This document shows positions 18,012 to 32,404 of a stretch of DNA of 64,000 nucleotides, piece after piece. Position 1 is the stretch's first letter. Every line of letters begins with the position of its first letter. Under the pieces are notes generated by a model. It was not told the origin of the DNA. It worked only from the letters and a program-made list of their open reading frames with translations, and made no database searches. The stretch is from NCBI RefSeq assembly GCF_000703085.1, contig NZ_JNLL01000001.1, forward strand, positions 620,001 through 684,000, written 5' to 3'. A program made the position numbers and the translations under genes. This DNA comes from Persephonella sp. KM09-Lau-8. Its GTDB lineage: Bacteria > Aquificota > Aquificia > Aquificales > Hydrogenothermaceae.

Positions 18012-18892
18012 AGAAAGGGCTTGTTATAGATAGAGAAGCGCAGATGATAGGGGTTTATACCCTTGATGATAAGAAGACATACAGAGGAATACCCAGAAAA
18101 AAGGTATTAAAAAAGACAAAGATATATGCAGGGGATTATGTTTACGGCGAAGTTGTTGATGAAAACACATTTGCCATAGAACAGGTAGAAGAAAGAAAAA
18201 ATTTCCTTGTCAGGCCACCAGTTGCCAATGTTGATAAAGTGCTAATTGTTTCTACAATAAAAATGCCTGAATTTGATAATTTTCTGATGGACAATCTACT
18301 TGTTGTTTATGAGCATTTTCAGACAGATCCAGTAATTATTTTCAATAAGATTGACCTTCTTAATGAAGAAGAAAAAGCAGGATTGGAAAAATGGACACAG
18401 ATTTACACAGATGCTGGTTATGATGTGCTCTGGGTCAGTGCAGCAAGAAATGAAGGAATTCAAAAACTAACAGATTATCTGGAAGGAATGATATGCGTTC
18501 TTGCAGGACCTTCAGGAGTAGGTAAGTCTTCAATCCTATCAAGGCTTGTTGGTGTCCAGCTGGAAGTAAGAGAAGTTAGTGAAAAAACAGAAAGAGGAAG
18601 GCATACAACAACAGGTGTAAAGCTGTTTCCATTTGGGGAAAACTCGTTTATAGGTGATACACCTGGATTTTCCAGTGTTGATGCGCTGTATTTCCTTAAA
18701 CCAAATGAAGTGAGGCTTTATTTCAGAGAATTTCTGAGATACGACTGTAAGTTTCCTGATTGCACCCATACCAGAGAACCGGGATGTCAGGTCAGGGAAG
18801 CAGTAAAGAACGGTGAAATATCCTGTGAAAGATACAAAAATTATATAAAAATAATAAAGGAAGACCCTGCCTTGTGGCAGGAGTTATGTTAG
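18008..18892 (+). CDS. rsgA: Ribosome small subunit maturation GTPase RsgA
   Basis: The start is GTG at 18008, overlapping the mtnC stop. The 294-aa protein shows the circularly permuted GTPase order: NKIDLL (G4, about 116-121), then LAGPSGVGKSSIL (G1, about 164-176), then DTPGFSS (G3). A C-terminal zinc knuckle has CKFPDCTHTREPGC and a later Cys, and an N-terminal OB-fold is present. RsgA helps late 30S subunit assembly. It ends against the convergent Fe-S gene with a 4-nt tail overlap. Confidence 0.95.
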   Translation: MKKGLVIDREAQMIGVYTLDDKKTYRGIPRKKVLKKTKIYAGDYVYGEVVDENTFAIEQVEERKNFLVRPPVANVDKVLIVSTIKMPEFDNFLMDNLLVVYEHFQTDPVIIFNKIDLLNEEEKAGLEKWTQIYTDAGYDVLWVSAARNEGIQKLTDYLEGMICVLAGPSGVGKSSILSRLVGVQLEVREVSEKTERGRHTTTGVKLFPFGENSFIGDTPGFSSVDALYFLKPNEVRLYFREFLRYDCKFPDCTHTREPGCQVREAVKNGEISCERYKNYIKIIKEDPALWQELC

Positions 18893-20190
18893 TAAACGGA
18901 GCTTACAGACTGCTCCTCTTCTTCTTTATTATCTGGTTTTTGTATATTTCCCCCTTCAATTAATCTTTCTGCCAGATAATCTGCAAGGTGGACAATTTTT
19001 ATGTTTTTGTAATCTCCATGTTTATACATTCCATCAGCGATGTTGAATATACAGCCTGGGCAGTCACTTAAAACATACTGAGCCTGGGTTTTTTCTATGT
19101 CTTTTACTTTTCTTTTCTGTATCTCTGTTGCAACTTCATAATTTGATACTGAGAAATATCCTGCAAAACCACAGCACATCATTGCATCTTCACCTTCTAC
19201 ATACTCAGCATCTATAACACCTTTCAAAAGGTCTCTGTAAACGTTCGGGTCTGTTGACATAGCTGTGTATGAGTGACATGGGAAGTGGAAAGTTACCCTT
19301 TCACCTTCTCCTTTGAACACCAGATAACCTTCTTCTCTCAGTATCTCTGCAAAATCCTTTACAGGATAGCCGTACTCCTCTTCAAGAGCTCCACCACAGG
19401 TTGGGCATGCAACAACGATATAATCAAATTCATACTTATCTATCTCCTCTTTATTGTGCTTGTAAAGTTTTTCAAATAAATCAACATAACCGCTGTATAA
19501 CTGGGGTGCACCGCAACATCTTATATTTTCAGGGACAACAACCTCGTAGCCAGCCTTTTCCATAAGTTTTATAACGCTTTCACCTGTTTTACCGTAAAAG
19601 GCATCTATCATACAACCTGTAAAGAATAATAATCTTCCCTTGGATTTTTCAGGTTTTACCTCTACTCCTCTCAGACCAAATGGTTTTGCTGTTGGTTTAG
19701 GAAGCAGTTTTGTAAACTTTGGAATTCCAGTATTAAGGAAAACAGCATTGTATTCAGGAACATCTTTTTTGAATAATTTTCCATAAGCATTCATCAAAGA
19801 AGGGGCAAACTTCATGGATACCTTTGTAACAAAATTACCTGTCATAGCAAGGCCTTGGTAAACAGCTGTTTTAACAGGGTCGAATTTGGATTTTTTCTTT
19901 TCCTCGGCCATAGCCCTTGCTCTGAACATGATATCCTTGTATTCAACTTCGTTAGGGCATATCCATTCACATCTTCTACACATTGCACATTCATTCCATT
20001 GCTGCGCTATCTCTTCTGTCAGAGGCAGAACTCCATCAACAACAGCTTCAGCAAGGGCTAATCTACCTCTTGGAGATGACCTTTCCTGTTTCACAACAGA
20101 ATAGGTTGGACATACAGAGCGGCAGGCAGAACATTTTACACACTGGTGCGCCAGATTTTCTGGCAGTGTTACATCTATAATATCACCCAT
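18889..20190 (-). CDS. CCG-domain (Fe-S)-binding oxidoreductase subunit, GlcF/HdrD-like
   Basis: The ATG at 20190 is preferred because AAAGGAG lies 6 nt upstream, giving 433 aa. Two [4Fe-4S] ferredoxin motifs open the protein (CVKCSACRSVCP and CAMCRRCEWICPNE). Two CCG cysteine-rich domains follow (CCGAPQLYSG and CCGFAGYF), with single Cys ligands FFTGCM, ACPTCGG, FPCHSY and SDCPGC. Such subunits hand electrons to or from a flavin partner (glycolate oxidase GlcF, glycerol-3-P dehydrogenase GlpC, HdrD, thermophile fumarate reductases). No flavin subunit is adjacent, so the substrate is unknown. It overlaps the small winged-helix gene by 8 nt. Confidence 0.85.
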   Translation of the reverse strand: MGDIIDVTLPENLAHQCVKCSACRSVCPTYSVVKQERSSPRGRLALAEAVVDGVLPLTEEIAQQWNECAMCRRCEWICPNEVEYKDIMFRARAMAEEKKKSKFDPVKTAVYQGLAMTGNFVTKVSMKFAPSLMNAYGKLFKKDVPEYNAVFLNTGIPKFTKLLPKPTAKPFGLRGVEVKPEKSKGRLLFFTGCMIDAFYGKTGESVIKLMEKAGYEVVVPENIRCCGAPQLYSGYVDLFEKLYKHNKEEIDKYEFDYIVVACPTCGGALEEEYGYPVKDFAEILREEGYLVFKGEGERVTFHFPCHSYTAMSTDPNVYRDLLKGVIDAEYVEGEDAMMCCGFAGYFSVSNYEVATEIQKRKVKDIEKTQAQYVLSDCPGCIFNIADGMYKHGDYKNIKIVHLADYLAERLIEGGNIQKPDNKEEEEQSVSSVY

Positions 20191-20380
20191 TTTGTTCTCC
20201 TTTAACACCTAAGATTTTGTTGTAGCATTTATCTATCTTAATCAGACCATTTATGTGAAGCTCATTAACTATTTTTTGAATACTGTTTCTATCAATACCT
20301 GTCAGTCTTTCCAGCTCGCCTACTTTAAGAGGTTTCCCTGCTTCCTTGATAATCTGAAGAATCAGTTTTTCTCTATCCAA
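20183..20380 (-). CDS. Small winged-helix DNA-binding protein (65 aa)
   Basis: MDREKLILQIIKEAGKPLKV then GELERLTGIDRNSIQKIVNE and LHINGLIKID is a typical three-helix-plus-wing pattern, the size of a bare DNA-binding domain. The last codons carry the SD of the Fe-S gene that follows, so the two are co-translated. It may regulate that gene or itself; no ligand domain is present. Confidence 0.8.
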   Translation of the reverse strand: MDREKLILQIIKEAGKPLKVGELERLTGIDRNSIQKIVNELHINGLIKIDKCYNKILGVKGEQNG

Positions 20381-20511: not shown

Positions 20512-20561
20512 TTAATAATATAAGACGATAATTAATATGAAATTCAGGTTAGGAGGGAAAT

Positions 20562-22463
20562 ATGGGATTTATAAAATTTAATGACTCTCCAGATAGTAAT
20601 ATTCCTGAGACAGGTGATACTTCTACCCAGACCCAAACCTCACAATCAAAAAATATCTTCCCAATGGGAGATAACATGGATTTAAAACAGCTTGCCCAGA
20701 ATTTATTAAGTAAAATTCAGGAGGGTTTGGCTGCAATTGAGGAGCTAAAGGGGACGATGGAGCAGATTGCTGCTGCTGCTGAAGAAAGTGCAGGAGCGGC
20801 AGAGGAAAGTTTAAGCGCAGTTACAGAAATCAAACAAAATGCTGCTTTAATGCAAAAAGAAACAGAAAAAGCTCTAATTGTAATAGATAATTTTGAAAAT
20901 CTAATCAAAAATGCCACAGAAGATGTAAATGAAAGCGGGGCAGGAATGGCAAAAACTGCCGACAGTGCCAGAAAAATAGCTCAGAAAACAGAAGAGTTAT
21001 TTAATGCAGGTAAAAATATAACTGATGCAGTAGACCTTATAACAAAACTTGCTAAAAAAACATCTTTACTTGCTTTAAATGCAGCTATAGAGGCAGCCAG
21101 AGCAAAAGAAAAAGGCAAAAGCTTCACAGTAATGGCCTCAGAAATAAGAACAATGGCATCAAAATCAAATACTTATGCCCAGAAAATAAAAGATATAGTT
21201 AAAGAAATTCAGGACAAAATAAAACTAACAAGAGATGAAATGGAAAAATTAGAAAAAGAAATGGTAAACGCCTCAGATGAAAGTAATATAGCTGTTCAAA
21301 AAATGGAAGAGTTATTAAAGGCCTTTGAGGATATAGTAAGAAAAACAGAAGAGATGCTTGACCAGGTTAACAGGGTTGTAAATGAGATAGATATTCTACA
21401 TCAAGGCTCTGAGACAATAGCGGCAGCTGCAGAAGAAGCAGCAGGAGCAACCAGTGAGGTGAGTAATACTGTTGCTTCTGAAGTTGTTGCATTTTCCCAG
21501 ATTGAAGAGGCTGCCCGCTCAATACTGGAAATTTCCATAAAAATTGATACTAAAAATAGCCAGATTGTAGCCAATGAGGTTGCAACTGCATCTGAGGAGC
21601 TTTCTGCATCTATAGAAGAACTGGAAAAATCTATGGAACAGATAGTTGAAGCTCTCAACCAGATAGAAGAAGCAGCCAAGATATCCGAAGAAGATGCCAC
21701 CAAAAACTCAAATGTTGCCCAGAACTGCGTAAACTACATTGAGCAGGCAAACAACTCAATTCAGAATATAGTTAATACTCTCCAAAAACTGTTTGAAGAT
21801 TACAATCAGATTTTTGAAACAGTAAAGAAAACCCGTCAGTTATCAAAACAAAATACAGAAAAATCAGAAGGACTGAAACTCCATCTAAACCTGATTAAAT
21901 CAAAAATAAACTCACTGAACAACACTATCCGTAAAATTGAGCTGGCACTGGTTCAGACCACAGCTTTATCAATAAACGGAGCAGTTGAGGCAATAAGAAT
22001 AGGAGAATTAGGGGAAGGCTTTAGTGAGGTAAGTCGGGATATAAGAGAACTTGCAACAACTTCAGAGGAAAATCTGGATAAAGTTATAGAAATCATAGAC
22101 CATGTAAATGAGGAAAATGACATAATTCTGGTTGAGCTAAACAATATAGTTCTTACTCAAGATAGAGAAAATGAAAAACTCCAGAAATTAGAAATTGAGT
22201 TTGGAAAAAATTTAAACTCCTTTAAAGAGCTTATGGAAACTATGGAAAAGCTAAAAAAATCTATAGAAGAAACAAAAGTAGCCCTTGAACAATCAAAAAT
22301 AGCAGCAGACCAGATAAAAGAAGCTGCAGAACTTTCACTGAAAAATGCTTCAGAATCTAAACAGGCAGCAGAACTCATACTAAACACCGTTAGAGAAATG
22401 GACACGGCAGTTAATATACTCTCTGCTGTTGCAGAAAAACTGTCTAAAGGTGTGTCAGCATGA
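20562..22463 (+). CDS. Soluble methyl-accepting chemotaxis-type protein with two signalling units
   Basis: A 633-aa, almost wholly helical protein with no membrane segment. The first signalling tip is at about 163-205 (KKTSLLALNAAIEAARAKEK, then GKSFTVMASEIRTMASKS), close to the MCP consensus. A second, less conserved tip is at about 463-510 (TTALSINGAVEAIRIGELG, then EGFSEVSRDIRELATTSEEN). Ala/Glu-rich helices such as AAAAEESAGAAEES and AAAAEEAAGATSEV supply likely methylation sites. The N-terminal about 45 residues are low-complexity and show no sensor domain. As first gene of an operon with CheW, CheB and CheR homologues it should be a cytoplasmic receptor. The doubling is odd. Confidence 0.88.
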   Translation: MGFIKFNDSPDSNIPETGDTSTQTQTSQSKNIFPMGDNMDLKQLAQNLLSKIQEGLAAIEELKGTMEQIAAAAEESAGAAEESLSAVTEIKQNAALMQKETEKALIVIDNFENLIKNATEDVNESGAGMAKTADSARKIAQKTEELFNAGKNITDAVDLITKLAKKTSLLALNAAIEAARAKEKGKSFTVMASEIRTMASKSNTYAQKIKDIVKEIQDKIKLTRDEMEKLEKEMVNASDESNIAVQKMEELLKAFEDIVRKTEEMLDQVNRVVNEIDILHQGSETIAAAAEEAAGATSEVSNTVASEVVAFSQIEEAARSILEISIKIDTKNSQIVANEVATASEELSASIEELEKSMEQIVEALNQIEEAAKISEEDATKNSNVAQNCVNYIEQANNSIQNIVNTLQKLFEDYNQIFETVKKTRQLSKQNTEKSEGLKLHLNLIKSKINSLNNTIRKIELALVQTTALSINGAVEAIRIGELGEGFSEVSRDIRELATTSEENLDKVIEIIDHVNEENDIILVELNNIVLTQDRENEKLQKLEIEFGKNLNSFKELMETMEKLKKSIEETKVALEQSKIAADQIKEAAELSLKNASESKQAAELILNTVREMDTAVNILSAVAEKLSKGVSA

Positions 22464-23800
22464 AGGTGAGTGTTCTGGAGTTTACCATTGGAGATGGCTT
22501 ATTTGGAATTCAGGCAGACTATATAAAACTCATATTTGATGTGGAAGTTATAAAAGATGTGGATATGATGCCTGATTATGTAATTGGTATAACAAGATAT
22601 GGGGAGAATGTCTATCCTCTTATATGCACAGCCAGAATTCTGGAAATGGAAGGGGATTTTTGCACCCAACCTATCGGAAAAACAGCCATTGTTGTAAAGA
22701 CCAGAAAAGGTCTGTATGCACTTCTTATTGATGAAATAATAAAAATACAGGAGATAGAAAAAACAGATGAAAACAGCATAATAAACTTTTATAAAGAGCA
22801 GGACACGGTTTTAGAAGAAATCACACCAAAATTTATTGAACAGAGGGTAAATATACCAAGCTTTTTTGAGAAAAAAGAAAAGGATTTTGCAAAGACATTA
22901 TCACAGGAAGAAAGAGCCTTTGTTTTGTCTGAAATAGAAGATAGGATTATTGGATTTGATATTGATCTGGTAAAAAAGGTTGAAGATATAGAAGAACTAA
23001 AACCTTCACAAATTCCAACAGAAAACTGGGTAAACAGGGTTTATTCTCTAAAAAATATGATTATTAAGACAGGAAATCTTAGAAAATTGCTTAATATCAA
23101 TGAAAAAAAAGGGGAAAATCTTATATTATTAGGCAAAGGTAGCAAAATTCTAGGTATTGAAGTGGATAGAATAAATGATTTTGCTGCAGTTCCTGAAAAT
23201 GAAATAAGTATTTCCACAGAAGAGGAAATTTTTGACAGATATTTTATACATAATGGGAAAATTGTATCTGTTATAGCAAACAAGCATATAAACAACTGGA
23301 TAGACCAGTATGCTCTGAAATCTGAGATTCACCATGAAGAAGAGACAAAGAGAAAGGATACAAAGGAAATTCTACTGATAAAAATAGGAAATAAAAGATT
23401 CGCCTTAAAAATGGATGAAATTGTGGAAGTCCTGAACTACGAAGATGTGAAAATCTCAACATATCCGACTAAAAATCCTTATATAAAAGGGATAATGGCT
23501 TTTAGAGAAAAAACATACTACCTGATTTCATTTGAGGCAGCACTTAATCAGAAAATAGATATTGATGAAAATACAAAAATATTGATATTCCAGAAAGACG
23601 GTAAAGAGGGAGCTCTTATAATATCAGAAATAGAAGATATCTTATCTGTTCCAGAAGAGAAGATAATTCCTGTTTTATCAGAGGATTCATTTATAGATGG
23701 AGCCTTTATTTCAGATACAGGAGATATTATCAATTTCTTGAATCCAAACTGGATATATAATGCAGGAGGATTAAAAGGAGAGCTGGTGGAAAATGCGTAG
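22460..23800 (+). CDS. Triple CheW-domain coupling protein
   Basis: The 446-aa protein reads as three CheW-like folds in tandem: about 1-110 (SVLEFTIGDGLFGIQADYIK to YALLIDEIIKIQEI), about 155-270 (AFVLSEIEDRIIGFDIDLVK to ILGIEVDRINDFAAVP) and about 303-425 (EILLIKIGNKRFALKMDEIV to GALIISEIEDILSVPEEK). There is no receiver domain, so it is not CheV. CheW normally couples receptors to CheA; three linked copies could bridge several receptors or replace part of the kinase array. It overlaps the MCP stop by 4 nt and cheB by 8 nt. Confidence 0.8.
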   Translation: MKVSVLEFTIGDGLFGIQADYIKLIFDVEVIKDVDMMPDYVIGITRYGENVYPLICTARILEMEGDFCTQPIGKTAIVVKTRKGLYALLIDEIIKIQEIEKTDENSIINFYKEQDTVLEEITPKFIEQRVNIPSFFEKKEKDFAKTLSQEERAFVLSEIEDRIIGFDIDLVKKVEDIEELKPSQIPTENWVNRVYSLKNMIIKTGNLRKLLNINEKKGENLILLGKGSKILGIEVDRINDFAAVPENEISISTEEEIFDRYFIHNGKIVSVIANKHINNWIDQYALKSEIHHEEETKRKDTKEILLIKIGNKRFALKMDEIVEVLNYEDVKISTYPTKNPYIKGIMAFREKTYYLISFEAALNQKIDIDENTKILIFQKDGKEGALIISEIEDILSVPEEKIIPVLSEDSFIDGAFISDTGDIINFLNPNWIYNAGGLKGELVENA

Positions 23801-24869
23801 TAAAAAGATACTTGTTGTGGATGACTCTGCATTAGTTCGGAGAATTCTGTCTAATATAATTCAGGAATTAGGATATGAGGTAGACACAGCAAAAGATGGA
23901 GAGGAAGCTCTCCAGAAGATTCAGCAGGAGAATTATGACCTGATTACTCTGGATATTGAAATGCCCGGTAAAAATGGCATAGAAGTCCTGAGAGAGATTA
24001 TGGAAAAGAAGCCTACACGGGTGGTTATAATCAGCTCCTACGCAACTGATAATGCAGATGTTACACTGGAAGCACTGGATTTAGGGGCTCTTACCTATAT
24101 AACAAAACCAGGTAAACTGGGAGTAGACCTAAAGAAAATAGAAGAGGAAATAAAAGTAAAAATAGAAGAATCCCTAAAAGTTCCCAAATACAAAATAATA
24201 GCCAATAGAAGAAACAAAACCCCAAAAATAATCCACAAAGAGATATCTACAACAGATTTCGTTCCCAAAAAAGACCATAAATATGTTCTGATAGGAGCTT
24301 CCACAGGAGGACCCAGACTTATTGAAGAGATAGCAAGAACACTTCCAGAGAATTACCCTTACCCAATATGTGTGGTTCAACACATGCCTGTGAATTTCAC
24401 AAAAAAGTTTGCCGACAGGTTAAACAGTATCAGTAAACTTACAGTTGTTGAAGCTTCCAACGGAGAAGAAGTTGTTCCCGGAAAGATGATAATAGCAAAA
24501 GGCGGATATCATCTGCATTTTAGAAGAAGACAGGACGATGTTATTGTGTGCAAACTGGTATCAAATGCCAGAGGTAGAATTTTCGTTCCATCTGTAGATG
24601 AGATGTTTTTCTCAGCCTTAGAAGTTATGAACCCAAAAGATATAATTGCAATTCTTCTTACAGGAATAGGGGATGATGGTGCAGATGGTATGGTGGCTCT
24701 CAGAAAAGCAGGAGCTTACACCATAGCAGAAAGCGAAGAAACAGCAACAGTTTATGGAATGCCTAAGGAAGCTTATGTTCGAGGTGGAGCCTCAAAGGTT
24801 CTACCATTTCCGGAGATATTAGAAGAATTAATAAAATTAGGAATGGAGACAGATGTTCAAAAAGCATAA
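23793..24869 (+). CDS. cheB: Chemotaxis response regulator methylesterase CheB
   Basis: A receiver domain is at 1-120 (ILVVDDSALVRRIL, phospho-acceptor Asp in DLITLDIEMPGKNG, TKPGK Lys). The methylesterase domain is at about 165-350, with the catalytic Ser in GASTGGPRLIEE, the His in CVVQHMPVNFTKKFADRL and the Asp in TGIGDDGADGMVAL. It removes methyl groups from (or deamidates) receptor glutamates. No CheA is in the cluster to phosphorylate it, so either a kinase elsewhere acts on it or control differs. Overlaps its neighbours by 8 and 17 nt. Confidence 0.95.
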   Translation: MRSKKILVVDDSALVRRILSNIIQELGYEVDTAKDGEEALQKIQQENYDLITLDIEMPGKNGIEVLREIMEKKPTRVVIISSYATDNADVTLEALDLGALTYITKPGKLGVDLKKIEEEIKVKIEESLKVPKYKIIANRRNKTPKIIHKEISTTDFVPKKDHKYVLIGASTGGPRLIEEIARTLPENYPYPICVVQHMPVNFTKKFADRLNSISKLTVVEASNGEEVVPGKMIIAKGGYHLHFRRRQDDVIVCKLVSNARGRIFVPSVDEMFFSALEVMNPKDIIAILLTGIGDDGADGMVALRKAGAYTIAESEETATVYGMPKEAYVRGGASKVLPFPEILEELIKLGMETDVQKA

Positions 24870-25455
24870 TCATACTTATCATATACAGAGGTTTAAAGAA
24901 TTTGATGAAGCAAGGGTGTTTATAGAAGATATGAGCAAAGATGAGGAAAACACCCTTGCAGCCATTGATTATATGATTACCCATAAGGAGTATTACTTTT
25001 TACTGAAAAATCTACTTAAAAACATAAAAAACAACAGAATAAACAGAAAAATGTATGAGTATGCTCTGTTATCCCTTGATAAATGCCCTAAAAGAGAAGA
25101 AGAAAAAGAAATCTACAGACAGATTTTAAGAACAGAGAGAACTGCTTTTGTGGAACCTTTAATAGACTTCCTCAAAAGTTGCAGCTGTGAGTTAAAAGAT
25201 TTTCTATTTTCACTTATGGATGAAAACAGTCCAGAGCTACGTAGAATAGCAGTAAAGGCATTGCAACACTGTCCTGATAAAACAGCAGATAATCGTATTC
25301 TTCAGCTTGCAGTAAAAGAAAAAAACCAAAAGGTTTTAAGAGAAATAGCAAAATATATTCAGCTGTTTATAACAGATAAACAGAAGCTGGAGGAGGTGAT
25401 ACAAAAAAACTCAGAATTAAAAACGATAATAAAAAATTATACACAGGTAGGTTAG
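24853..25455 (+). CDS. HEAT-repeat-like helical protein in the chemosensory operon
   Basis: A 200-aa all-helical protein. The second half holds two HEAT-like helical pairs (DFLFSLMDENSPELRRIAVKA and LQLAVKEKNQKVLREIAKYI), the pattern of short protein-binding repeats. It has no membrane or enzymatic motif. It overlaps cheB by 17 nt and precedes cheR by 4 nt, so it is expected to work with the adaptation enzymes, perhaps as a scaffold. I do not recognise a named family. Confidence 0.7.
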   Translation: MFKKHNHTYHIQRFKEFDEARVFIEDMSKDEENTLAAIDYMITHKEYYFLLKNLLKNIKNNRINRKMYEYALLSLDKCPKREEEKEIYRQILRTERTAFVEPLIDFLKSCSCELKDFLFSLMDENSPELRRIAVKALQHCPDKTADNRILQLAVKEKNQKVLREIAKYIQLFITDKQKLEEVIQKNSELKTIIKNYTQVG

Positions 25456-25459
25456 TTAT

Positions 25460-26278
25460 ATGGAGGTATCGTCGCAGCAGCTTAAAAAACTGAGGGATTT
25501 TATTCAGATAAATACAGGGATTTTTATAGATGATGAGAAGTTAGATAATATATACAAAAGAAAAATAAAAGAACTTCTTGTCAAAAATAATTACAGGGAT
25601 TTTGATTCTTTTTACAGGGATGTATTAAGAAATCAATCCCTCAGGCAGGAGCTATACAACGCAGTTACCATAAATGAAACATATTTTTTCAGGGAAGAAT
25701 ACCAGTTTAAGACCCTTGTTAGGTATATAATCCCTGAACTGGACAAAATCCGTCCCCCAACTGAGCCTATAAATATTCTCAGTGCTCCCTGTTCAACAGG
25801 GGAAGAGGTCTATAGTATAGCCATTTATATAATGGAAGAAGGTCATTACATCAAAAAAAGAGATTTTATGCTGCTGGGAATAGATATAGACAGTGAAGCA
25901 ATTAGGAAAGCCAAAGAGGGTATTTATTCAGAAAGAAGTGTTAGTAAACTACCTCAGCATATAAAGGAAAAATATTTCAAGAAAATAGGAAATCACTATC
26001 AGGTCATTGACCAGCTGAGGAAAGCTGTTTCATTTAAAGTGGTAAATGTGATGGACAAGCATACAATGAAACGGCTTGGGAAATTTGATGTGATTTTTTC
26101 AAGAAATATGCTGATTTACTTTAACGAGATACACCGTAGAGAGATACTATCCACTTTTTACAATATGCTAAAACCTAATGGTTACCTTTTTCTGGGACAT
26201 GCAGAGCGTATTCCTCCAAGCCTGAAACTTTTTAAACAAATCAAATTGGGGGAAAGCTTTGTATACAAAAAGGAGTAA
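25460..26278 (+). CDS. cheR: Chemotaxis protein methyltransferase CheR
   Basis: A 272-aa CheR: an N-terminal helical domain (QQLKKLRDFIQINTGI), the TINETYFFREEYQF segment, SAM-binding ILSAPCSTGEEVYSIAIYI, LLGIDIDSEAIRKAKEG, and DVIFSRNMLIYFNEIHRREI, then GYLFLGHAERI. It methylates receptor glutamates using SAM. Present with CheB and an MCP, it makes a complete adaptation pair in a cluster that lacks CheA. Confidence 0.95.
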   Translation: MEVSSQQLKKLRDFIQINTGIFIDDEKLDNIYKRKIKELLVKNNYRDFDSFYRDVLRNQSLRQELYNAVTINETYFFREEYQFKTLVRYIIPELDKIRPPTEPINILSAPCSTGEEVYSIAIYIMEEGHYIKKRDFMLLGIDIDSEAIRKAKEGIYSERSVSKLPQHIKEKYFKKIGNHYQVIDQLRKAVSFKVVNVMDKHTMKRLGKFDVIFSRNMLIYFNEIHRREILSTFYNMLKPNGYLFLGHAERIPPSLKLFKQIKLGESFVYKKE

Positions 26279-26306
26279 ATATGGCTTAGAAGAAGGGAAA
26301 ATTTAT

Positions 26307-28667
26307 ATGATAGAAACTGATAAGGATTTAAATATCTTAGAGATGTCCCAGAAGAATTTCTTAGGTTATAAAAATATAAAAGGTGAGAATTTTATCAATT
26401 TTATCCAGAAACGGCAGATAGAAGAGTTTAAAGCGAAAATAGAAGAGCTAAAAAAAGGTAAAAAATTTATATTCTTCCCAAAACTCCGCCTTGTTACAGC
26501 AGATAAAAAAATAGAATATTTTGATGCTGTAATAATTAACCATGAAAAAGTATTCTGTATTTATCTTATAAATGTGACAGACAGTTATGAAAAAGAAAAA
26601 GTATTCAAAAAAATCCTTGAAGTTGTTCCTATAGGAATATTCCTACATATCAGACTAAAGCCTGTTTTTATAAACTCAAAGATGGCAGAAATTCTGGAAA
26701 TTCCACAGGAAGAACTGGAAAACTTTAATGTTGAAAAACTAAAATCAATTGTTTATCCGAAAGACTGGCCAATAATAGAAAACTATCTGGAAAAAAGATT
26801 AAAAGGTGTAAAAGAAACCGCTGATTATATAGTGAGGATAAAAACCCCTAAAGGAAAAATCAAATGGATACATGTAGTTTCAGATACTATCTTTGTCAAA
26901 GGTATGCCTGCAGCTCTCGGTGCAGTTGAAGATGTAACGAAAAACATTTCTCTGGAAAATGCATACAGACTTTTATCTTCTATAAACAGGGCAATTATCA
27001 GCACTACCTCTGTCCATACATTGTTCAGACGTCTTGTTGAGATTTTTGTTGATATAGGCAAATTTAAACTGGCAGTTATTGAAAAATTTTCCCCTGTCAG
27101 AGAAAGTATTCCAATAATGTATGAAGCTGATGAAGAGATTGCTGACAAAATAGATATAGAAAAACTTTCAGACAAAAATTTTATCCAGAATGAACTTCCT
27201 AAAATTTTAGACCTGTATTTTGCTGTAAGTATTCCCATTGTGATCAAAGGAAAAGCAGAATTTGCTTTATCTCTATACTCAGATATGCCTCAATTTATGA
27301 GTTTCAGGGAAAGCGAAGTATTTAGCGAGATTGCAGGGGATATTTCCCTTGCCATCAGCTATATCAGGAAAGAACATGATTTATTTAGAAAAGAGTATTT
27401 TGATGGTTTGACAGGTATTGGCAACAGAAAACTGCTGTTTAAAAAGTTAGATGAACTAATTTCTGAAGATTATCCATTTTATTTAATTCTTATTGATATA
27501 TATAACTTTAAACATATAAACGAAGTTTACGGAGAAGAAACAGCTGATTTTATACTTAAAGAGTTTGTAGACAATATCAGGAGAAATATAACTACTCATT
27601 TTGTTTTCAGAAGTGGTTCAGACGAAGTTGCCATTATATATACAGGTAAAAATATAGTTAATTTTCTAAATAAGCTAAAGACAGTTCTTCAAACACCTGT
27701 GCAGATTAGAAACAAAACAATACATATTGATTTTAATATGGCAGTAGTTGAATATCCAAAAGATGCAAAACACAGAATGGAGCTTATTCTAAAAGCAGAA
27801 AGAACCCTTGAGATGGCCAAAAATGAGGGTAAAAACACAATAAGATTTTTCAACAAAGAAGAATATATAAAAACCAGAAAATTCCTGTCTATGGAAGAGA
27901 TTATAGAAAGGGCATTAAGAAAGGACTTATTTTTCATAAACCTGCATCCGATAGTTTCGTTTGAAACCGGTGAAGTTATTGCAGCAGAAACCCTTATCAG
28001 ACTAAAGGATGAGAATGGTAATTATATATCTCCTGCAGATTTTATACCTGTTGCTGAACAGACAGGTCAGATTGTTTTAATAGATGATCTTGTAATAAGA
28101 AAAGTAAGTAAAATCATATCCCAGTGGAAAAAGGAAAATCTGAAACCTGTTAAGATCTCTATTAATGTAACCCCGTCAAATATCAAAAATTTAGTAGAAA
28201 CATTTCACCATAAAAATCTCAATTACAATAATTCAGGATTTTCCCCTGAAGATATAGAGAATCTGAAAAATTACGTAATTTTTGAGCTGACAGAAAGGGA
28301 GTTTGTAGAGATAGCAGAAAATAAAAAAGAGATAGAAATTTTAAGGGAATTAGGATTTGAGATAGCTATAGATGATTTTGGAACAGGATACTCAAATCTG
28401 AACTATCTGGCAGAGACAGATATAGATTTTCTGAAGATAGATATATACTTTGTTAGAAATATGCTTATGAATGAAAAATTATTCAAACTGGTTAAATCTA
28501 TAATCAATATTGCAAAAATATTTGATATTAAAACAATTGCTGAAGGAGTTGAAAAAGCAGAAGAATACACAGCCCTGAAAGAGCTGGGCTGCGATTTTTA
28601 TCAGGGATACCATTTCTGTAAACCTTTACCCCCTGAAGAGTTCAAAAAATATCTTAAAAAGGTCTAA
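26307..28667 (+). CDS. PAS-GAF?-GGDEF(degenerate)-EAL protein, probable c-di-GMP phosphodiesterase
   Basis: Start set at ATG 26307 (786 aa); the same frame runs up to a TTG at 26259 inside cheR, which seems a poor start. There are PAS-like regions (about 1-215), then a GAF-like region (about 220-355), then a GGDEF domain whose active loop reads SGSDEV instead of GGDEF and lacks an RxxD I-site. The EAL domain keeps its key residues: ETLIR, SINVTPSN, ELTEREF, AIDDFGTGYSNL, LKID, AEGVEK and FYQGYHF. So it likely hydrolyses c-di-GMP, with the GGDEF as a regulatory part. No membrane segment. The context links the output of the chemosensory operon to c-di-GMP. Confidence 0.82.
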   Translation: MIETDKDLNILEMSQKNFLGYKNIKGENFINFIQKRQIEEFKAKIEELKKGKKFIFFPKLRLVTADKKIEYFDAVIINHEKVFCIYLINVTDSYEKEKVFKKILEVVPIGIFLHIRLKPVFINSKMAEILEIPQEELENFNVEKLKSIVYPKDWPIIENYLEKRLKGVKETADYIVRIKTPKGKIKWIHVVSDTIFVKGMPAALGAVEDVTKNISLENAYRLLSSINRAIISTTSVHTLFRRLVEIFVDIGKFKLAVIEKFSPVRESIPIMYEADEEIADKIDIEKLSDKNFIQNELPKILDLYFAVSIPIVIKGKAEFALSLYSDMPQFMSFRESEVFSEIAGDISLAISYIRKEHDLFRKEYFDGLTGIGNRKLLFKKLDELISEDYPFYLILIDIYNFKHINEVYGEETADFILKEFVDNIRRNITTHFVFRSGSDEVAIIYTGKNIVNFLNKLKTVLQTPVQIRNKTIHIDFNMAVVEYPKDAKHRMELILKAERTLEMAKNEGKNTIRFFNKEEYIKTRKFLSMEEIIERALRKDLFFINLHPIVSFETGEVIAAETLIRLKDENGNYISPADFIPVAEQTGQIVLIDDLVIRKVSKIISQWKKENLKPVKISINVTPSNIKNLVETFHHKNLNYNNSGFSPEDIENLKNYVIFELTEREFVEIAENKKEIEILRELGFEIAIDDFGTGYSNLNYLAETDIDFLKIDIYFVRNMLMNEKLFKLVKSIINIAKIFDIKTIAEGVEKAEEYTALKELGCDFYQGYHFCKPLPPEEFKKYLKKV

Positions 28668-30025
28668 TTTTCCAGTGTTTTGATACTATCTTTAAGCATA
28701 TCTAAGAAATAATTCAGTTCATCCTCGGATATAACAAGAGGAGGCATTATTACCATAACATCTCCAAGGGGTCTTACCCATATACCTCTTTTAAGCATTT
28801 CTTTTGCCACCTTGAAGCCTGTTCTTTCTCCGTAAGGGAAAGGTTCCATCTTTTCTTTATCCTTTACCAGTTCAACTCCAGCCATAAATCCGTATTGTCT
28901 AACATCTCCCACATGTTTTAGTTCCCAGAACTCTTTTAACCTTTCCTCTAACAGTTTTATCTTTGGTTGAAGTTTTTTTAATGTCTGTTCTTCCTCAAAA
29001 ACCTCCAGATTTGCTATTGCAACATTGCAGGCTATTGGGTTCCCTGTGTAAGTATGACCGTGATAAAAATGTTTTGCTTCCCCAAATTCTCCTAAAAATG
29101 CATTGAATATCTCATCTGTTACAAGGGTGGCTGCAAGGGGAAGATATCCACCTGTTATTCCTTTTCCAAGAGCCATTATATCTGGCTCAATTCCTTCCTT
29201 CTCGGAGGCAAACATATAACCTGACCTTCCAAACCCTGTTGCAACCTCATCAACAATCATAAGAATGTTATACTCATCACATATTCTTCTGACTTCTTTT
29301 AAGTATCCCTTAGGGAAAGGAAGAATTCCTGCTGCTCCCTGCACTCCTGCCTCAAGGACAAATGCAGCTATCTCCTGATGATTTTTGAATATAAATTCCT
29401 CAACCTCTTCTATAAGAAGTTTTGTTGTGTCATACTCAAGTGCTTTTTCTCTGCCAACTTTTTTGACTGCCTCAAGATATGGGGAAGGCATTTTATAAAC
29501 ATCAAAAAGGAGAGGCTTATATTTTTCGTGGAATATGTTTATACCACCTACAGAAACACTTCCTATGGTATCCCCGTGATAAGCCTCAGATAGAGTTACA
29601 AACTTATTTTTTTGGTTTTCCCCTTTGTTGTGCCAGTAGTGGTATGCAATCTTTATGGCAATTTCCATTGCCTCAGCACCATCTTCAGAGTAGAAAACCT
29701 TTGTAAGTTTAGGAGGAGTTATCTCCACAAGATTTTTGGCACAGACTATTGCAGGAACATTAGAAGCACCAAGGGTGGTAAAATGGGCTATCTTTTGAAC
29801 CTGCTCAATAACAGCCTGATTTAGCTTTGGATGATTATGTCCATGAACATTACACCATAGAGAAGCAACACCGTCCAAATATTTATTTCCGTAAATATCA
29901 TACACATAAACACCTTCACCCCTTTCAACAATAACATTCTCTTCTTCCCTGTAAACCTTCATCTGTGTAAATGGATGCCAGAAATACTCTTTATCCCACT
30001 CCTCAAGATATTTTCTGTTCAGCAT
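28664..30025 (-). CDS. bioA: Adenosylmethionine-8-amino-7-oxononanoate aminotransferase
   Basis: A 453-aa class III PLP aminotransferase. It opens with WDKEYFWHPFTQMK, as is typical of BioA. It shows SLWCNVHGHNHPKLN, the LSEAYHGDTIGSVSVGG block, FVLEAGVQGAAGI, the Asp of MIVDEVATGFGRSG and the PLP Lys in ALGKGITGGYLPL. It makes 7,8-diaminononanoate in biotin synthesis, normally with SAM as amino donor. SD GGAGG before the ATG. It ends with a 4-nt tail overlap with the EAL gene; no other biotin genes are here. Confidence 0.93.
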   Translation of the reverse strand: MLNRKYLEEWDKEYFWHPFTQMKVYREEENVIVERGEGVYVYDIYGNKYLDGVASLWCNVHGHNHPKLNQAVIEQVQKIAHFTTLGASNVPAIVCAKNLVEITPPKLTKVFYSEDGAEAMEIAIKIAYHYWHNKGENQKNKFVTLSEAYHGDTIGSVSVGGINIFHEKYKPLLFDVYKMPSPYLEAVKKVGREKALEYDTTKLLIEEVEEFIFKNHQEIAAFVLEAGVQGAAGILPFPKGYLKEVRRICDEYNILMIVDEVATGFGRSGYMFASEKEGIEPDIMALGKGITGGYLPLAATLVTDEIFNAFLGEFGEAKHFYHGHTYTGNPIACNVAIANLEVFEEEQTLKKLQPKIKLLEERLKEFWELKHVGDVRQYGFMAGVELVKDKEKMEPFPYGERTGFKVAKEMLKRGIWVRPLGDVMVIMPPLVISEDELNYFLDMLKDSIKTLEN

Positions 30026-30139: not shown

Positions 30140-31669
30140 ATGAACTTTATTAAAACTTATAAAAGAGAGATTCTATACGCTGTTATCATTTTCTCTCTTT
30201 TAAGTTTGATCTCTTCATTTGTTTTTTGTAAGTTTTATTTACAGGCTGAACAAAATTTTATAGATAGAGCATTAAAGACCAATAAATACATAATACTATC
30301 CGAACTACGTTCATTAACAGATATCTCAGATATAACCTATGACATAAGGATTAACCAGCCTGATGTTCTTCTCCTTATGTATATGGCAAATCATACTAAA
30401 GTTAGAGATACTTATCGGATACAACTTTATAAAAAACTTTTACCTGTGTATAAATCTTTAAGAAAACATGGCATTCGCCAACTACATTTTCACCTTCCCG
30501 GTTCTATAAGCTTTTTGAGATTTCATAAGCCTGACAAATATGGGGATTCCTTAAAAGGAATTAGATACACCATAGACCTTGCAAATGAAACCAGAAAAGT
30601 TGTTCGGGGATTTGAAGAGGGAAGAATATTTAATGGTTTTCGGAATGTTTACCCACTTTTTTATGATGATGAGTTTATTGGGACTGTTGAGATATCTTTT
30701 TCAGCAATTCCTCCGATAAAATCCTTAAGTTATTTATATCCAGGATATTATGGATTTCTAATCAGAAATGAGCTAATTACCAAAAAAGTCTGGAAAGAAG
30801 AAAGAACAAATTATCTTCCTTCAAAGGCTATCCCAGATTATAGCTGGGACAGAAAAGTGCTTTATACAGTTTTAGGAGACACAAAGAAAATAGAAACTAT
30901 AAAAAATCTTGAAAAGTTATTAAAAGGGAAGGTAACTAAAATAATAAATAAAGATATTGCATTAAAAATTTCATATAATGGACAAGATTATCTTGCCTTT
31001 TTTATTCCTGTTAAAAATGTAAAAGGAGAATATGCTGCAGCTTTCGCCGGTTTTATCCCAGAGGTTTTTTTCAGAAAAAATCATCACAAATTTGTATTTA
31101 TGGGTATGTCTGCTATAGGTTTTAATTTCCTTGTGGCTCTGCTTATTTTTATACTGCTTAAAAAAGATAAAGATTCTAAGTTATCCCTTGAGAAAAAATC
31201 AATAATAGACCCATTAACAGGACTTTTAAACAGAAGAGGTTTCTATAAATTATCTGAGCCAATTATTGCAAATGCAGAAAGAAAAAACAGACCTGTTTCT
31301 CTAATGTTTGCAGATATTGACCATTTTAAACAGATTAATGATAATCATGGGCATCATACAGGAGATAGAATTCTAAAAGAATTTGCAAGAATATTACGTT
31401 CAAATTTAAGAAAAAGCGATATTATCTCCAGATGGGGAGGAGAAGAATTTTTAATTCTGTTAAATGATACAAATACCCAGCAGGCCAAAAAAGTTGCCGA
31501 AAAAATTAGAAAAATTGTTGAAGATACTCAAACCTCTCCTAAATTTACTGTCAGCTTTGGAGTTACCCAGAAAAGGAAGGATGAAAAATTAGATTCTGCT
31601 ATTGAAAGAGCTGATAAATTATTGTATAAGGCCAAAACAACAGGTAGAAATAAAGTGGTTTCAGACTGA
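30140..31669 (+). CDS. Membrane diguanylate cyclase with periplasmic sensor
   Basis: A 509-aa protein with one N-terminal membrane helix (YAVIIFSLLSLISSFVF) and a second near 318-338 (GMSAIGFNFLVALLIFILL), enclosing an about 280-residue outer sensor. That sensor includes LHFHLPGSISFLRFHKPDKY, the hallmark of a Cache-like fold common in such enzymes. The GGDEF domain (about 350-509) has RWGGEEFLILL at about 430 and an I-site RKSD five residues before it, so active synthesis with product inhibition is expected. The ATG follows a weak SD. It stands alone between bioA (divergent) and the next plus-strand genes. Confidence 0.9.
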   Translation: MNFIKTYKREILYAVIIFSLLSLISSFVFCKFYLQAEQNFIDRALKTNKYIILSELRSLTDISDITYDIRINQPDVLLLMYMANHTKVRDTYRIQLYKKLLPVYKSLRKHGIRQLHFHLPGSISFLRFHKPDKYGDSLKGIRYTIDLANETRKVVRGFEEGRIFNGFRNVYPLFYDDEFIGTVEISFSAIPPIKSLSYLYPGYYGFLIRNELITKKVWKEERTNYLPSKAIPDYSWDRKVLYTVLGDTKKIETIKNLEKLLKGKVTKIINKDIALKISYNGQDYLAFFIPVKNVKGEYAAAFAGFIPEVFFRKNHHKFVFMGMSAIGFNFLVALLIFILLKKDKDSKLSLEKKSIIDPLTGLLNRRGFYKLSEPIIANAERKNRPVSLMFADIDHFKQINDNHGHHTGDRILKEFARILRSNLRKSDIISRWGGEEFLILLNDTNTQQAKKVAEKIRKIVEDTQTSPKFTVSFGVTQKRKDEKLDSAIERADKLLYKAKTTGRNKVVSD

Positions 31670-31750: not shown

Positions 31751-32404
31751 ATGATAAGAGAAGAAGACGTTTATATGATTATAAAAACGGAAAATGGAGA
31801 AAAAAGATTTGGATGGATTTTTTCAGAGGGTTATCCTAAAGGAGCTTCTGAGTATTTCATCGCAACAGAGGAAATAATAAAGGACAAAGAAAATCCCTTA
31901 AAATATCTAAAAGAGGTCAAATGGGCAATATACAGCGGAAAAACTGGAGAAAAATTAACACAGGCTTTTGATTGGATTTCCCCGCTGGGACTGGTAAAAG
32001 GGCAATCTCCATATTTCAGAGGAACATTAAACGGCAAAGATGCTTTATTTTCTCTAAAGGGACAAAAAACAGACTGGTTTGAAAAGATTAGAGATAGAGG
32101 AGCTTTAACAGGGGAAAGTAATTACTACTGGGGCAAGAAAAATAAACATTTTGCTTTGTATGATATCACTACCGGAGAAAAACTTACAGATGATTTTAAA
32201 TCCTCTGTTATAGCAGGGGCTCTAATCGGAAAATCAGAAAACCTTATTGTAGGCAGCTACGGAGACGAAATATTTTTTATACTTGATATAAAAACAGGGG
32301 AAAAACTTACACCAGATTTTGACGAGCATAAATTAATAGAGATATTAAAACATGGGGATTTAGAAAGGGCAGTAAGGGAGCTAAACAATGGAAAAAATAC
32401 TTAA
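31751..32404 (+). CDS. Uncharacterised protein with internal TGEKLT repeats
   Basis: A 217-aa soluble protein with repeated units ending in a similar phrase: SGKTGEKLTQAFDW (about 61-74), DITTGEKLTDDF (about 139-150) and DIKTGEKLTPDF (about 181-192). Between them are beta-strand and Tyr/Gly-rich stretches. The spacing (about 42 residues between the second and third) suggests a small repeat beta-structure, loosely like WG repeats. It has no signal peptide or catalytic motif I know. It overlaps the next HD-domain gene by 17 nt, so it may act with it. A strong SD (GGAGAGAAGG) supports the start. Confidence 0.7.
   Translation: MIREEDVYMIIKTENGEKRFGWIFSEGYPKGASEYFIATEEIIKDKENPLKYLKEVKWAIYSGKTGEKLTQAFDWISPLGLVKGQSPYFRGTLNGKDALFSLKGQKTDWFEKIRDRGALTGESNYYWGKKNKHFALYDITTGEKLTDDFKSSVIAGALIGKSENLIVGSYGDEIFFILDIKTGEKLTPDFDEHKLIEILKHGDLERAVRELNNGKNT

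Follow-up and report, generated by a model that had tools for sequence, protein, structure and literature searches.

Relation to described F9 systems

Chemoreceptor arrays are usually defined by the kinase that they control. The closest described relatives of the chemosensory operon considered here, which occupies positions 20562-28667 of a 64,000-nt window of the Persephonella sp. KM09-Lau-8 genome (the whole stretch of DNA analysed; coordinates are positions in this window unless a locus is named), are the partial F9 gene sets. In these, dosM, cheW3 and cheBR occur without cheA or cheY; they are described for two Nitratiruptor species and one Nautilia species, with partial sets in 8 of 2781 species overall and one origin in Campylobacterota/Aquificota (PMC9321776). 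The authors of that 2022 study suggested that partial F9 sets borrow the CheA of another class, and the kinase gap of such operons is already published there. The full F9 system of Vibrio cholerae (cluster I), as presented in PMC7534058, resembles the window operon in combining DosM and a concatenated triple CheW in a cytoplasmic array, but has its own CheA, VC1397, whereas the window operon has none. The same paper allows that an array without CheA is possible, and presents the function of the class as not yet well understood, V. cholerae included.

The Persephonella operon consists of six genes, all on the plus strand:

20562..22463, plus: DosM, a soluble methyl-accepting chemotaxis protein (MCP) of 633 amino acids (aa) with two signalling domains (Pfam MCPsignal, 4.4e-39, two stretches)
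22460..23800, plus: CheW3, three concatenated CheW domains (Pfam CheW, 5.5e-40, three stretches; orthologues found)
23793..24869, plus: CheB, receiver and methylesterase (Pfam Response_reg and CheB_methylest; alignment of 74 CheBs)
24853..25455, plus: HEAT-repeat protein of 200 aa, candidate CheB/CheR scaffold (HEAT_2, 8.6e-5, below cut-off; structure model; relatives)
25460..26278, plus: CheR methyltransferase (Pfam CheR, 3.1e-58)
26259..28667, plus: PAS-degenerate GGDEF-EAL protein, predicted cyclic di-GMP (c-di-GMP) phosphodiesterase (Pfam PAS_3, GGDEF and EAL; motifs)

An earlier note, made from the sequence without searches, had placed this gene set in one operon that encodes neither a kinase nor a free CheY. 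Pfam matches and coordinates bear out the set; by gene calling and Pfam, neither the operon nor the genes next to it include a CheA, CheY or other kinase. The note's genes that "overlap end to end" do so at four of five junctions (by 4, 8, 17 and 20 bases, the last where the PAS-GGDEF-EAL gene, with a TTG start, overlaps CheR); HEAT and CheR are separated by a gap of 4 bases. The double signalling domain of the MCP, which identifies the class, had been overlooked; both MCPsignal domains were recovered again in a genome search.

A receptor with two signalling domains, together with a triple CheW, defines the F9 class, and the relatives of DosM sit in F9 loci. The operon has the tandem-domain receptor, the triple CheW, cheB and cheR of a partial F9 set, and its receptor appears soluble, since in a simple scan the 19-residue hydropathy peaks at 1.02 and no stretch is strongly hydrophobic. 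The CheA and CheY that a full F9 cluster has of its own are missing from the operon. Placed by architecture and by a DosM/CheW3 tree, the operon is almost certainly a CheA-less ("partial") F9 system. Like the Nitratiruptor and Nautilia sets (PMC9321776), it has dosM, cheW3, cheB and cheR without cheA or cheY, and lies in a genome with a single CheA of another class. It differs from their description in adding the HEAT and PAS-GGDEF-EAL proteins; the main text of PMC9321776, as distinct from its supplements, mentions neither HEAT, EAL, GGDEF nor c-di-GMP.

The preferred reading, to which we give a probability of roughly 0.5, is that DosM and CheW3 form a kinase-less array that is tuned by methylation and has c-di-GMP hydrolysis as its output. 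One-clade membership, fixed receptor tip changes, pairing with c-di-GMP enzymes and decay of the CheB receiver, set out below, are new leads.

Distribution and the CheA-less clade

In a sample of 136 genomes of the phylum, searched for CheW3, CheB, CheA and CheR, the CheW3 query matched in 37, single-domain CheWs counted too, and CheB was found in 47, CheA in 85 and CheR in 55 (48 over the cut-off). The C-terminal domain of DosM, used to scan a genome collection covering 84,980 species, gave 265 relatives, of which 80 were taken, so that the distribution outside Aquificota and Campylobacterota is a sample. From 100 loci (L061-L160), 6 without an adequate DosM and 8 duplicates were removed, leaving 86 distinct loci. 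Locus L083, from a Persephonella metagenome-assembled genome, is the same as L069, from a genome of the window's genus; the named relatives are Hydrogenothermaceae.

The gene order of the operon is kept in L061 at 95-99% identity (89% for the EAL protein). The ratio of nonsynonymous to synonymous substitution rates (dN/dS) between the two is 0.063 for DosM, 0.048 for CheW3, 0.036 for CheB, 0.152 for HEAT, 0.075 for CheR and 0.111 for EAL. By these ratios the operon is under purifying selection; the same order at high identity, with dN/dS of 0.04-0.15, argues that it is not a chance assembly.

The earlier note had proposed comparing gene order across other Aquificota. The order DosM-CheW3-CheB-HEAT-CheR-EAL recurs in L061, L063 and L069 and partly in L062, and a rearranged order, DosM-CheW3-CheR-EAL-CheB-HEAT, is found in L064, L065 and L068. 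Four Desulfurobacteriaceae loci (L070-L073) have DosM-CheW3-CheR, with CheB on the opposite strand. The Aquificaceae (L074-L078) do have CheA, in the order DosM-CheW3-MCP-CheY-CheA-CheB-HEAT-CheR-CheY.

In a tree of DosM and CheW3 from the window and the 76 loci in which both are complete (n=77), all 24 CheA-less tips fall in one exclusive clade with support of 1.0. Its members are Hydrogenothermaceae, Desulfurobacteriaceae and Campylobacterota, and the tree is most simply read as a single loss of CheA and CheY, the remainder being retained. Having kept array, adaptor and methylation enzymes but not the kinase, the clade raises the question of the purpose of a CheA-free array, and its small conserved gene sets offer a way to test it.

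The receptors of the clade differ consistently from the others. Every DosM outside the clade was counted as full F9 (n=53), including some on short contigs where CheA was unseen. In these 53 sequences, 82 DosM columns reach a conservation of 85% or more, and the CheA-less clade has lost 20 of them. Two residues of the first receptor tip are affected: an aspartate present in 52 of 53 full F9 sequences is replaced by lysine (23) or asparagine (1), and an asparagine present in 52 of 53 by serine (21) or glycine (3). At the second tip, a methionine present in all 53 is alanine, serine, threonine or asparagine in 24 of 24. In well-studied systems CheA and CheW bind to the receptor tips, so these changes may be a footprint of kinase loss; they count as a single event.

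It could be argued that the operon is what is left of a full F9 system in decay and has no present function. Decay does occur among relatives, in that DosM of genome G067 has three stops and G093 has broken CheR and EAL pieces, and G082 and G086 keep only CheB-HEAT-CheR at the window's site. However, dN/dS values of 0.036-0.152, intact catalytic residues and membership of one clade across three bacterial groups make this explanation highly improbable. The interrupted DosM (G067:C61, L203) stands beside an intact CheR, in a partial F9 set that is decaying.

Association with c-di-GMP enzymes

The last gene of the operon encodes a predicted c-di-GMP phosphodiesterase. Its EAL domain scores 1.3e-60, and all seven EAL catalytic motifs of the commonly known list are present, while its GGDEF domain is degenerate (GSDEV in place of the GG[DE]EF cyclase motif). 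Relatives of the protein show a weak GAF match besides.

A GGDEF or EAL gene lies inside the core, or within two genes of it, in 13 of 24 CheA-less loci and in 2 of 62 other F9 loci (Fisher test 5e-8, a value that ignores phylogeny and is no true probability). For this count L096 replaces the window among the 24; truncated and outside the tree, with its upstream GGDEF-EAL gene more than two genes away, it was scored as a miss. The 13 positives are seven Hydrogenothermaceae, two Desulfurobacteriaceae (L071, L072), L088, L094, L098 and L099. A stricter count, without L094 (a weak GGDEF lacking the motif) and L099 (opposite strand), gives 11 of 24. As a control, ORFs (open reading frames) four or more genes away in the CheA-less set include GGDEF/EAL genes in 2 of 87 cases.

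The other F9 loci divide into Aquificaceae (2 of 16: L077, L118) and the remainder (0 of 46). Five more Aquificaceae have such genes at a distance of three genes, so the c-di-GMP link is not confined to CheA-less sets. Because the position and domain make-up of the enzymes differ among groups, the data suggest that they were recruited separately. The earlier note's suggestion of c-di-GMP hydrolysis as a plausible output gains from the intact EAL motifs and from the recurrence of such enzymes beside CheA-less F9 sets, which would give a little-understood class a concrete output. Among the papers listed by a literature search, two mention both DosM and c-di-GMP, each term once. With 19 EAL-domain matches across its 2.07 Mb, the genome is rich in c-di-GMP genes for a thermophile with so little DNA.

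Methylation enzymes and the single CheA

The genome (2.07 Mb, 2 contigs, 100% complete; 12 HATPase matches) encodes exactly one CheA, recognised by its dimerisation domain, one CheB and one CheR. The CheA gene is about 0.27 Mb away from the operon and belongs to a flagellar cluster that also encodes two MCPs, CheY, CheV, a small CheW and CheZ but neither CheR nor CheB. An F14 label for this cluster would come from PMC9321776, which assigns that class to Persephonella. Since this is the only CheA and its cluster has no CheR or CheB, it may feed the window CheB. A CheA elsewhere in an incomplete, complementing cluster was what the earlier note expected to tell against a kinase-free operon. The composition of the flagellar cluster and the intact phosphorylation pocket of CheB do point that way, but CheB is missing from 42 of the 85 CheA-bearing genomes in the phylum sample, so that a flagellar system needs no such complement. 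Genome G128 has a CheA-less F9 set and no CheA match but is 83% complete, and was not used as an example of a CheA-free cell. In G082, a flagellar cluster (L205) has a divergent CheR beside CheZ, no CheB, and GGDEF/EAL genes and another MCP nearby.

The alignment of 74 CheBs, from which the split CheB of L149 was left out by length, shows both functional sites of the window CheB intact: D10, D11, D54, S82 and K105 in the receiver pocket and S170, H197 and D295 at the catalytic site. All 74 proteins keep the catalytic triad. The 45 CheBs from outside the CheA-less clade (three duplicates included) all have the phosphorylated aspartate and the lysine. Within the clade, the pocket is intact in the window and in all Hydrogenothermaceae CheBs aligned, lost in 4 of 4 Desulfurobacteriaceae, and damaged in its acidic pair in 3 of 3 Nautiliaceae and 2 of 7 Sulfurimonas-type proteins (L094, L097). 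Methylesterase function thus appears to outlive phosphorylation in part of the clade, and the intact receiver indicates that phospho-input to CheB probably remains in the window's family. PMC9321776 gives a precedent in the F3 class, whose CheB lacks a receiver; the Desulfurobacteriaceae and Nautiliaceae relatives are similar in this respect, whereas the window CheB keeps its receiver intact.

This pattern bears on two other explanations. In a hybrid array, as proposed for Nitratiruptor and Nautilia (PMC9321776), DosM and CheW3 would recruit the flagellar CheA and signal through CheY to the motor, with CheB and CheR serving both receptor sets. The sole CheA in a cluster without CheR/CheB, the intact CheB receiver, and the retention of CheB-CheR without DosM in G081 are all in its favour. 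However, all 24 CheA-less DosM proteins have other residues at tip positions that full F9 receptors conserve, the Desulfurobacteriaceae G129 and G133 have lost the CheB pocket even though they do possess a flagellar CheA, and the 42 CheB-free genomes count here as well; we regard a hybrid array as possible, though somewhat unlikely. At the other extreme, the system could be wholly phosphorylation-free, with CheB a constitutive methylesterase and signalling by methylation and conformation only. The lost pockets of Desulfurobacteriaceae, the damaged acidic pairs of Nautiliaceae and the universally kept catalytic triad would fit, but the intact pocket in the window and all compared Hydrogenothermaceae is hard to explain without a phospho-donor, and this explanation is distinctly improbable.

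DosM has four canonical methylation motifs (the motif in its generally known form), at residues 70, 77, 287 and 341. The scan covered five of its six fellow MCPs in the genome (all but L026) and found the motif in none of them. The control MCPs of G080 and G077, from flagellar clusters with their own CheB and CheR, are also free of the motif. The motif therefore marks DosM as a substrate and is mute on flagellar MCPs, and the idea that CheR and CheB serve DosM only was dropped.

The methylation enzymes also occur without the rest of the operon. G082, G083 and G086 have CheB, HEAT and CheR as a trio at the corresponding site, beside the aminotransferase-like gene "BioA" that also flanks the window operon, with DosM, CheW3 and EAL missing there; in G090 the contig stops after CheB-HEAT. 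In G081, which is 99% complete, only CheB-CheR remains at the site, and neither CheW3 nor DosM is in the genome. All five of the orphan CheBs group together in a separate clade (support 0.991). By locus, CheB-HEAT-CheR stands alone at the site in L080 and L199-L201, and CheB-CheR alone in L198.

The HEAT-repeat protein

The HEAT_2 score of the window protein, 23.2 bits, is below the curated cut-off of 27.7. Its AlphaFold model (mean pLDDT 90.2) has twelve helices in a HEAT-type solenoid. Structure comparison returned HEAT/TOG-type matches, with a best Foldseek value of 9.4e-3 and none at E < 0.001, and a VIA Z of about 12, within the range that unrelated helical repeats can give. The model supports a HEAT fold only, not a function.

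For 43 of the 62 CheR genes in F9 loci, the gene immediately before CheR is an ORF of 160-361 aa outside the known che genes. Scanning 39 of these 43 proteins (four near-identical ones were dropped) together with the window protein gave HEAT_2 matches in 38 of 40. A profile comparison of the window family with 18 other-F9 HEAT proteins, sharing no row (A2 against A5), aligned 188 columns (97.8%, E 9.4e-13); A2 against A4 was set aside because a shared window row made it circular. The HEAT protein is, on these comparisons, a general F9 component beside CheR and not special to the window operon. The earlier note had called it a new partner, which is not supported, as HEAT proteins adjoin CheR in many phyla whose F9 clusters are complete with CheA. 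Its place beside CheR in most F9 clusters makes it a candidate core component. The trio at the window's site without DosM suggests that HEAT travels with the methylation enzymes, and that these can persist without DosM. In L124, L132, L158 and L159 a longer HEAT protein (355-361 aa) precedes CheR and CheB lies beside CheW3, which ties HEAT there to CheR rather than to CheB.

A V. cholerae counterpart might be VC1400, a guess from locus-tag numbering only. The available text of PMC7534058 makes no mention of an F9 HEAT protein, and a literature search combining "HEAT repeat" with che returned a paper on an archaeal HEAT_PBS protein and otherwise single mentions; the V. cholerae DosM paper was outside the scope of both. 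The archaeal protein, OE2401F of Halobacterium, is according to PMC2666748 encoded among che genes and binds Che proteins, as might be the case here; it binds CheY, CheD and CheC2 and is needed for archaeal motor switching, a likeness by description only.

A working model

In the preferred model of a methylation-tuned, kinase-less array, DosM and CheW3 would form a cytoplasmic array of two layers that contains no CheA. CheR and CheB would set the methylation of DosM, and the HEAT protein would scaffold the CheB/CheR pair. The PAS-GGDEF-EAL protein would dock on the array, whose state would be read out as c-di-GMP hydrolysis instead of CheY phosphorylation. The intact receiver suggests that in the window genome CheB keeps phospho-input from the single flagellar CheA; such input looks lost in Desulfurobacteriaceae. 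The model draws its support from the single clade (24 of 24), purifying selection, the fixed tip changes, the four methylation motifs, the retained CheB-HEAT-CheR unit, the c-di-GMP neighbours and the CheB pocket pattern.

Several observations weigh against it. The contacts among the proteins of the scheme are ones we infer from sequence. The methylation-motif control failed, and flagellar MCPs may also be clients of CheB and CheR; the retention of both enzymes without DosM or CheW3 in G081 likewise points to a second client. HEAT is missing from the Sulfurimonas-type and Desulfurobacteriaceae CheA-less loci in the neighbourhood comparison and so is not essential to the kinase-less state. Finally, c-di-GMP enzymes are missing from the two-gene range in 11 of the 24 CheA-less loci, some of whose contigs are cut, so that a c-di-GMP output would not be general.

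A more far-reaching version is unlikely. It would have a phosphotransfer-free array in which methylation and conformation of the DosM/CheW3 lattice, sensed by way of a HEAT scaffold on CheB/CheR, directly gate a docked c-di-GMP phosphodiesterase. CheA and CheY would have been lost once in the clade ancestor, c-di-GMP enzymes would have taken the output slot several times, and the CheB receiver would have decayed in Desulfurobacteriaceae.

Flanking features and other genes

The names of the two flanking genes are our own, from reading the sequence:

18889-20208, minus: Fe-S protein gene, upstream flank
20551..20557, plus: Shine-Dalgarno-like AGGAGGG ahead of DosM, read from the sequence
28664-30025, minus: aminotransferase-like gene ("BioA"), downstream flank

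A promoter scan 5' of 20562 gave 3 matches against a mean of 2.7 in shuffled sequences, which is no excess. Between the Fe-S gene and the operon, a 65-aa winged-helix protein is encoded at 20183-20380 on the minus strand (MarR_2, 1.9e-6; TTG start), and is a possible regulator. Beyond BioA, a dCache_3-GGDEF protein with an intact GGEEF motif (30140-31669, plus; 86% identity in L061) is adjoined by a gene for a 217-aa protein without a Pfam match (31751-32404, plus).

In full F9 clusters, CheA is followed by a ParA/MinD-like ATPase of about 250 aa (AAA_31), perhaps an array-positioning protein, which is not present in the window operon:

L108, 18468-19208: ParA/MinD-like ATPase
L124, 6460-7227: ParA/MinD-like ATPase
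L132, 6332-7117: ParA/MinD-like ATPase
L101, 15228-15980: ParA/MinD-like ATPase

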